A DNA stretch of 64,000 nt from Thermincola carboxydiphila (GTDB lineage Bacteria; Bacillota; Thermincolia; Thermincolales; UBA2595): the NCBI GenBank assembly GCA_016841325.1, contig JAENZJ010000004.1, positions 1-64,000 on the forward strand, given 5' to 3'. Positions 56,884 through 58,588 of this stretch are shown piece by piece (position 1 is the first letter of the stretch; each line of letters begins with the position of its first letter). Both the position numbers and the translations under genes were made by a program. The notes beneath the pieces were generated by a model. That model saw only the letters and a program-made list of their open reading frames with translations, had not been told where the DNA came from and did not search any database.

Positions 56884-57048
56884 TTATATTTCGCCTTCAA
56901 GAAGCAGTTTTTCATTACATTTCCTCACTGCAGAAAAGTATTCCTGTTTTTCCTCTTCCTTTTCAGTTTTCATCCACTTTTCCCGAAGCCTTTTAAGATA
57001 TTCCCGGGAACAGCATTTCCATGCCTCTTCCGGTTTGAAACTCTTCAT
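56884..57048 (-). CDS. Small 54-aa charged protein under a CsoR/CstR-like operator
   Basis: The ATG has GGGAGG eight bases upstream. The product is helical and basic (KPEEAWKCCSREYLKRLREKW) with a Cys-Cys pair near residue 12 and a third Cys near the C terminus, which could bind metal. I know of no named family. Its promoter (57075-57128) has the same -35, -10 and palindrome arrangement as that of the FmdE-like gene, so both may answer to one repressor. The plus-strand frame over it is a shadow. Confidence 0.7.
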   Translation of the reverse strand: MKSFKPEEAWKCCSREYLKRLREKWMKTEKEEEKQEYFSAVRKCNEKLLLEGEI

Positions 57049-57166: not shown

Positions 57167-57499
57167 TCACTTTTTCACCATTCCCATTCTCTCCAGTTCT
57201 TCGACGATCTCCATATAATTGAGCCCTGTACCGGGGCGGATAATTTTCCCGTTTATGACCAGTAGCGGCAGCTGCATTCCCGCCCTTTTAAGGTAATCCT
57301 CGATTTCAGGGTAATCGTCCAATTCGTCATCAATGACATCAATATACTTTGTTTCAACCTGATCACCATAATCCCTTTTCAGGATTTCACCAAGTACCTT
57401 CACAGTCTCAGCCTGAGACTGTGAAGGGCCTCACCCGGTACGGCGGCAGTTGTCCAAAATCCGCGAACCGAAAATCACTACTTCAATTTTACCTGTCAT
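57167..57499 (-). CDS. Candidate selenoprotein, thioredoxin-fold YuzD/DUF1462-like, 110 aa
   Basis: The gene reads from an ATG at 57499 (GGAGTG upstream) as MTGKIEVVIFGSRILDNCRRTG, then UGA (57431-57433), then GPSQSQAETVKVLGEILKR and a normal thioredoxin-like end (YIDVIDDELDDYP, LPLLVINGKIIRPGTG). A plain translation would show only the part after the UGA, from a GTG at 57403. C18 and Sec23 would be the redox pair, where YuzD-like proteins have a nearby Cys motif. A strong hairpin directly follows the UGA. The gene follows queC in the same direction and is probably co-transcribed. Confidence 0.75.
57397..57433 (-). promoter_or_regulatory. Candidate bacterial SECIS element after the in-frame UGA
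   Basis: Three bases past the UGA, CCTTCACAGTCTCA pairs perfectly with TGAGACTGTGAAGG over a GGC loop, a 14-bp stem. The loop starts with G and lies about 17 nt from the UGA. Both are within the ranges described for bacterial SECIS hairpins that recruit SelB-Sec-tRNA. Confidence 0.75.
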
Positions 57500-57521
57500 A
57501 CTATCACTCCAGACTATTTCT

Positions 57522-58199
57522 TTATTTCCCGTCATAAGGAATGGGGTCCGGGTAACCGGCCTCCCTGAAGCCCCGCAGTCTTAACAGGCAGCTGTCACAG
57601 GTGCCGCAGGCCTTTTCCCCGCCCCGGTAGCAGCTTGTGGTCAGTTCCAGCGGGGCTCCGTTGGCCACCCCCAGTTTGATAATCTCTGCTTTCGACAGAT
57701 TGATTAACGGGGTTTCGACCCTTATTTTCTTCTTATCCTGGGTTGCTGCCCTGGTAGAGTAATCAGCCAGCTGCTGGAATCTTTGGATAAACTCCGGCCG
57801 GCAGTCAGGATAACCCGAGTAGTCCACTGCATTGACCCCGATATATATCTTTGCCGCATCCAGGACCTCGGCATACCCCAGGGCATAGCTCAGAAATATG
57901 AGGTTCCGCGCCGGGACATAAGTAACCGGGATGTCTTCCCTGACCTCATCCCCGTCCGGGACATCAATATCAGCCGTTAAGGCGCTGCCGCCGATTGCAT
58001 CCAGATTTGTTGAGATTATCAGGTGTCTGGTGACCCCGTAAAATGCCGCAACCTTTTTGGCACATTCCGTCTCCCGGTTATGCCTCTGACCATACGCAAA
58101 ACTGACGGGATAAATCTCATATCCCTCTTTGCGGGCCACACTCATACAGACTGTTGAATCCAGTCCCCCTGACAGCAGGACAACCGCTTTCATACTCAA
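57522..58199 (-). CDS. queC: 7-cyano-7-deazaguanine synthase
   Basis: QueC makes preQ0 from 7-carboxy-7-deazaguanine and ammonia using ATP, a step of queuosine synthesis. The 225-aa product has the PP-loop LLSGGLDSTVCMS at residues 8-20, and the zinc-binding cysteines near the C terminus (CYRGGEKACGTCDSC). It starts eight bases after queD, so the two are co-transcribed. No queE is present in the window. The queD-queC-selenoprotein order is unusual. Confidence 0.96.
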   Translation of the reverse strand: MSMKAVVLLSGGLDSTVCMSVARKEGYEIYPVSFAYGQRHNRETECAKKVAAFYGVTRHLIISTNLDAIGGSALTADIDVPDGDEVREDIPVTYVPARNLIFLSYALGYAEVLDAAKIYIGVNAVDYSGYPDCRPEFIQRFQQLADYSTRAATQDKKKIRVETPLINLSKAEIIKLGVANGAPLELTTSCYRGGEKACGTCDSCLLRLRGFREAGYPDPIPYDGK

Positions 58200-58207
58200 A
58201 ATCCTCC

Positions 58208-58588
58208 CTAATTGTCATAATATGCTGCAGACGCGTTCTCCGATTCCCAGACAGTTACCCTGGACACATTTACCCGGCATCCGGTGTTTTCCTGCAGCCT
58301 GGCCTTCATATTATCATAAATCATTTTGGCAATATTTTCAGCTGTAGGGTTAAGCCGGTCAAAAGGAGGAACATCATTTATCAGCTTGTGGTCAAATATC
58401 TCTGTTACCTCTTTAAGAAGCTGCTTAACATCCATAAAATCAATCAGGATACCCAACTCATTCAGTTCTGAACCTGTCAGCTTTATTTCAACCCTCCAGC
58501 GATGGCCGTGGACGTTGGCACACTTGCCGGGATAGCCGCGCAGAAAATGAGCCGCATCAAAATGGCTTACTGCAGATATTTCATACAA
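58208..58588 (-). CDS. queD: 6-carboxy-5,6,7,8-tetrahydropterin synthase
   Basis: QueD converts dihydroneopterin triphosphate to carboxytetrahydropterin, the first dedicated step of the deazaguanine branch. The 126-aa product has the zinc ligands in SHFDAAHFL and NVHGHRW, with the catalytic Cys just before (KCANVHGH), and the DFMDVKQLL and DHKLIND motifs. It uses TAG as stop. I looked for a preQ1 riboswitch upstream and did not find one. Confidence 0.95.
   Translation of the reverse strand: MYEISAVSHFDAAHFLRGYPGKCANVHGHRWRVEIKLTGSELNELGILIDFMDVKQLLKEVTEIFDHKLINDVPPFDRLNPTAENIAKMIYDNMKARLQENTGCRVNVSRVTVWESENASAAYYDN

Follow-up and report, generated by a model that had tools for sequence, protein, structure and literature searches.

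The window, a stretch of 64,000 nucleotides of Thermincola carboxydiphila DNA, carries on its minus strand a frame (57499-57170) of 110 codons that reads UGA as residue 23 and closes with a TGA stop at 57169-57167. Translation and comparison with orthologues delimit a putative selenoprotein gene at 57167-57499. With U at position 23, its product reads MTGKIEVVIFGSRILDNCRRTGUGPSQSQAETVKVLGEILKRDYGDQVETKYIDVIDDELDDYPEIEDYLKRAGMQLPLLVINGKIIRPGTGLNYMEIVEELERMGMVKK. The first-pass annotation had proposed a single frame that starts at an ATG with a good ribosome-binding site, passes through UGA at codon 23 and would be started by usual gene finders at codon 33. All three points hold: GGAG (57507-57510) precedes the ATG (57499-57497) by 7 nt, the in-frame UGA occupies 57433-57431, and the only ORF given by table 11 at the locus has 78 residues and begins at GTG 57403 (codon 33, 57401-57403). 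Because the standard code shows only this shorter ORF, annotation would lose the active site of the protein: Cys18 (TGC, 57446-57448), the first residue of a C-x4-U motif, and the presumed selenocysteine (Sec) at codon 23. The gene follows queC directly (7-cyano-7-deazaguanine synthase, 57522-58199, minus strand, TIGR00364 over cut-off), whose TAA stop (57524-57522) ends 22 nt upstream of the ATG, and queC is itself preceded by queD (6-carboxytetrahydropterin synthase, 58208-58588, minus strand, TIGR03367 over cut-off). The gene is probably co-transcribed with queC. Downstream of it, on the same strand, we noticed an ORF of 54 codons with a Cys-Cys pair (56884-57048), preceded by a strong sigma-70-like promoter (57128-57100, 11 of 12 matches).

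The gene is found in six genomes of the host's family, that of the window included, and the five orthologues, from four genera, are 63-81% identical to it. Among named records, close orthologues occur in MAGs of Thermincola ferriacetica and of Firmicutes. The UGA at the same codon, Cys18 and the order queD-queC-gene are kept in all six loci, and coding conservation extends to both sides of the UGA. Conservation of the upstream half had been put forward as a check of the selenoprotein reading, and this half is indeed kept as protein in all orthologues: the FGSR..DNC residues are conserved and the codons for F, G, S, R, D, N and C vary synonymously. The codons U+4 to U+8 (CAG TCT CAG GCT GAG), at the apex of a hairpin that follows the UGA, show no synonymous change among the six orthologues, against variation in 47 of the 50 informative codons outside the apex (8 of 55 informative codons are invariant in total, 5 of them in the apex). 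By permutation, a run of five invariant codons has P = 8e-4 anywhere and P = 1.6e-5 at this particular place. Invariant apex codons in an otherwise variable gene are the pattern expected of a hairpin inside a coding frame. As a caveat, this candidate SECIS element sits within the coding sequence, so its apical codons double as codons of a conserved peptide.

We searched 398 genomes of the phylum with a profile and translated the matches. UGA stands in the active-site loop of 45 members, which come from 39 genomes and about 32 genera; this count includes a doubtful member (G146:C18) and leaves out seven rows whose sole UGA precedes the gene. Cys or UGA in homologues at codon 23, another check suggested beforehand, was found in most cases: the column of the window's Sec holds UGA in 26 and Cys in 44 of 76 aligned homologues. 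One further UGA member (G175:C83) is off by one column. The Cys member G175:C54 reads CFSGGCGP where UGA counterparts read CFSGGUGP, and Cys forms of G391 (YCASCGGSRSQ and CSGCQTGR) can be compared with YCHGUGGNRSL. The YuzD proteins of G313, G268 and G394 (CASCVN, CPSCVN) and the ArsD of G045 (CCPTGLCGP) also have Cys in this column. The same frame could arise from one TGC to TGA change in what was once a Cys gene, by nonsense mutation or by an error of sequencing, but this reading is already refuted: 26 aligned homologues, drawn from many genera, share the UGA, and almost every one of them has the hairpin too. We give it practically no chance. Another 18 members form a second set, with the UGA several residues ahead of the window's Sec column (e.g., SGGUNCSGGDCGP), and all but the doubtful G146:C18 have Cys in that column. 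Because UGA falls either in the window's column or several residues earlier, Sec seems to be placed at either of two active-site positions, hereafter the second and the first. The tree, with limited support, needs several Sec/Cys state changes, and includes strongly supported Sec/Cys sisters within one genus (G308 and G286). We also noted a subfamily with CYSU or CSSU motifs (L097:4948-5235 in G056, also L055 and L058), which in L097 lies behind apt and whose G056 protein passes Pfam DUF1462.

The element behind the UGA had been described at first as a perfect 14-bp hairpin with a G-first loop about 17 nt away, and folding recovers just that: CCTTCACAGTCTCA-GGC-TGAGACTGTGAAGG (57427-57397, minus strand) begins 3 nt past the UGA and forms 14 bp with no mismatch around a GGC loop placed 17 nt after the UGA. 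The minimum free energy (MFE) of the region is -26.7 kcal/mol, compared with -13.8 +/- 2.8 for shuffled sequences, of which 0 of 200 were equally stable. Of 400 TGAs picked at random from related loci, 19% pass our own bacterial-SECIS filter and 0.75% reach -20 kcal/mol; the same scan scores the window hairpin at -23.9. The hairpin agrees with the published bSECIS constraints (PMC13188914, figure), having a 3-nt GGC loop with G first, a distance of 17 nt and an MFE far below -7.5 kcal/mol. It departs from them in its long, perfect 14-bp stem, whereas other family members have stems of 6-9 bp. Most second-position UGA members have a hairpin in the same place, with the loop (GGA, GGC or AGGAA) 16-17 nt past the UGA, and the candidate hairpins of first-position members are different and more varied.

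The stem covaries. In 24 sequences, 87.5% of the stem is paired and the covariation score is 0.311, against 0.139 after shuffling (0 of 500 shuffles as high) and no more than 0.129 when the partners are slid. Compensatory changes include A-U, G-C, C-G and U-A at one pair and A-U, G-C and G-U at the next. The signal persists in the 18 sequences left when the window's orthologues are removed (0.303 vs 0.135). The final two bases of row G309 in alignment A3 were guessed; they lie outside the helix and alignment A5 omits them. A covariance model built from the 18 non-orthologue sequences matches the window at 57433-57398 with 35.1 bits (E 4.4e-6), the next match having 10 bits, and across the host's own genome the two family loci alone stand out. 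A third match in that genome (C36:316610, 21.7 bits) lies outside the family genes and was taken as chance. At the same offset, at least 5 of 7 pairs form in 24 of the 26 UGA members and after 4 of the 44 Cys codons (p = 2e-11). The Rfam search returned no matching family, only chance matches to unrelated models. These data bear on the reading of the UGA as a normal stop, in which a 22-codon leader peptide would precede a separate 78-residue protein started at GTG 57403. Table 11 gives exactly that ORF, and intergenic hairpins can be regulators. However, the supposed leader evolves as protein and makes up strand 1 of the predicted fold, Cys homologues have one unbroken ORF across the same stretch, and the hairpin is fixed in place relative to the UGA and absent after Cys. 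We regard a leader peptide as very improbable.

The genome (3.43 Mb, 99% complete) encodes the Sec machinery, whose search had been the remaining check: selA, selB, tRNA-Sec and two selD genes were all found. The selB gene lies beside an fdhA with the frame ...HQARIUHSSTV..., selA on contig C39 adjoins one selD, the second selD is on C5, and tRNA-Sec (selC) scores 75.3 bits. Each of the two selD genes contains one in-frame TGA. Across the sample, selA occurs in 38 of the 39 genomes with UGA members and in 272 of 398 overall (P = 3e-6, uncorrected for relatedness). The genome G330 (loci L049 and L096), 99% complete, has a UGA member and a good tRNA-Sec, with no selA match listed. One could suppose that a variant code or selenium-free leaky readthrough puts Trp or Cys at the UGA, since readthrough of UGA occurs in bacteria and the homologous residue is Cys. 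This is hardly credible here: UGA also terminates the window gene, where no stable hairpin follows it, tRNA-Sec, SelA and SelB are present, and the UGA members track selA-positive genomes. We strongly infer the insertion of Sec at codon 23, where SelB and Sec-tRNA(Sec) would decode the UGA, aided by the SECIS hairpin just behind it.

The AlphaFold2 model, computed with Cys supplied for Sec, is a thioredoxin fold (b-a-b-a-b-b-a, pLDDT 81) in which the part before the UGA provides strand 1 and the C-x4-U loop, hence the predicted redox pair, comes right after it. Model confidence is lowest in the active-site loop (residues 19-22, pLDDT under 50). The best fold match is the YuzD-type protein SA0798 (1xg8, Z 9.8 over 101 residues), followed by ArsD (Z 9.5 for 3mwh, then 9.2 and 8.6), and thioredoxins mostly score 7-8. 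The family profile aligns with YuzD/DUF1462 (PF07315) over the full length (hhalign 98.2%, E 3.7e-14), with Sec on the second Cys of its C-x2-C motif, and with the sequence of 1xg8 (E 1.1e-7). The initial assignment to the YuzD/DUF1462 type is thus supported by profile and fold but not by the Pfam gathering score of 25, since the window protein reaches 22.0 bits (a sister subfamily passes, with 28.6) and has C-x4-U instead of C-x2-C, with the second position aligned. On the predicted structure, the arsenic metallochaperone ArsD (PF06953, NF033727; 3mwh, 3kgk) appears to be an equally close relative. It has a thioredoxin fold, and in the profile alignment (E 2.6e-7) the C-x4-C/U-G-P loop matches the second and third cysteines of the ArsD CC-x4-C motif, with Sec on the third. 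In contrast to ArsD, the window protein has no vicinal Cys-Cys pair, and it misses the family cut-offs (13.2 of 90 bits for NF033727, 14.2 of 27 bits for PF06953). Being below the Pfam cut-offs of both families, it is best described as a relative of YuzD and ArsD and not as a filed member of either. The thioredoxin-like selenoproteins listed in PMC13188914 (Table 1: Sec-Trx, Sec.1/Sec.2 of PF13192, SaoT, SELENOW-like) have the same fold, a Sec redox motif and a UGA followed by a bSECIS, but their motifs are UxxC, CxU, UxC or CxxU.

Taken together, UGA conservation, two-sided coding, SECIS covariation, Sec machinery, Cys/Sec exchange, predicted fold and neighbours, all of them computational lines of evidence, make it very probable that 57167-57499 encodes a real selenoprotein, a C-x4-U redox protein with a thioredoxin fold. 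The product would be a single-domain protein of 110 residues in the YuzD/ArsD group, with Cys18-x4-Sec23 in the loop after the first strand. Most likely, the Cys18/Sec23 pair cycles between thiol/selenol and selenenyl-sulfide, and electrons would pass from a donor of the thioredoxin reductase type to a substrate. A dithiol/selenol redox role with electrons fed by a reductase is our best guess because of the gene context of relatives, namely trxB and ars neighbours. The host genome has a UGA paralogue with the motif CSGGGUGPS (C13:163375-163710, L086:4876-5211) that immediately follows a thioredoxin reductase gene and is itself followed by a two-component system; the product of this upstream trxB is probably its donor. 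The link between trxB and the paralogue is seen in six genomes (the host's, G002, G004, G005, G009 and G025) from three families, TIGR01292 is over cut-off in the four trxB neighbours tested, and the UGA is also kept in the trxB-linked paralogues of orthologue-bearing genomes. A search of plasmid records with the paralogue of the same genome gave no match. The trxB link belongs to the paralogue and not to the window copy, whose own link with queC and queD points to no known redox need.

The main rival to a redox role is the binding of soft metalloids: the Sec protein would act like ArsD, as a chaperone or a sensor, and would carry no electrons, its selenol and thiol binding a soft metal or metalloid. 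The placement of Sec on the third Cys of ArsD and the fold match speak for it, as do the neighbourhoods of the wider family. First-position UGA members often lie by ACR3, ArsA, ArsD or ArsR genes (G001, G043, G045, G077, G251), as do Cys counterparts (G106, G175:C22, G340, G380) and the second-position member G146:C24. Yet the window copy lies behind queC, outside ars operons, the vicinal Cys pair of ArsD is missing, and ars operons with family members can hold a separate, normal ArsD (L100, L101). We consider metalloid binding unlikely, if still a serious contender, and retain the redox reading. Among individual loci, UGA members were seen in or adjoining ars operons with arsR, ACR3, arsD, two arsA and arsM (L100, L101, L102, L095), and Cys counterparts in the same context (L054, L068, L111, L112).

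Of the 119 families and subfamilies of prokaryotic selenoproteins in a 2026 review (PMC13188914), none is named DUF1462, YuzD or ArsD and none has C-x4-U. No NCBIfam model (June 2026) corresponds to the window protein or to any of ten relatives, the sole notable match being ArsD, far under cut-off. The 2006 survey that described nine selenoproteins in Carboxydothermus hydrogenoformans (PMC1794560) does not have the present family among them, and our literature search found no Sec form of DUF1462/YuzD, although further papers could still mention the family. The best reading is that the window gene belongs to an undescribed selenoprotein family with Sec at either of two active-site positions. 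We lean, with some reserve, towards a broader view: an uncatalogued selenoprotein superfamily of the YuzD/ArsD group across the phylum, with 45 UGA members spread over 39 of the 398 genomes sampled, Sec at the second (C-x4-U, C-x2-U) or first position (U before a retained Cys) depending on the branch, repeated Sec/Cys exchange, one branch working within arsenic resistance operons in a selenol-dependent way and another being a dedicated partner of thioredoxin reductase. This would add a selenoprotein family that is apparently widespread in the sampled phylum and cut down by standard annotation. The uncharacterised YuzD/DUF1462 proteins would gain a likely redox active site, and selenium chemistry is suggested within some arsenic resistance operons. 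The family also provides a natural set of proteins whose Sec has shifted between two places in a single active site; as the proteins are small, all of these ideas can be tested. Two UGA members (L090 in G059 and L091 in G131) were observed downstream of a gene resembling SAM-methyltransferases, the first of them also, as judged by eye, near an ACR3-like permease and a YeeE/YedE-like transporter.
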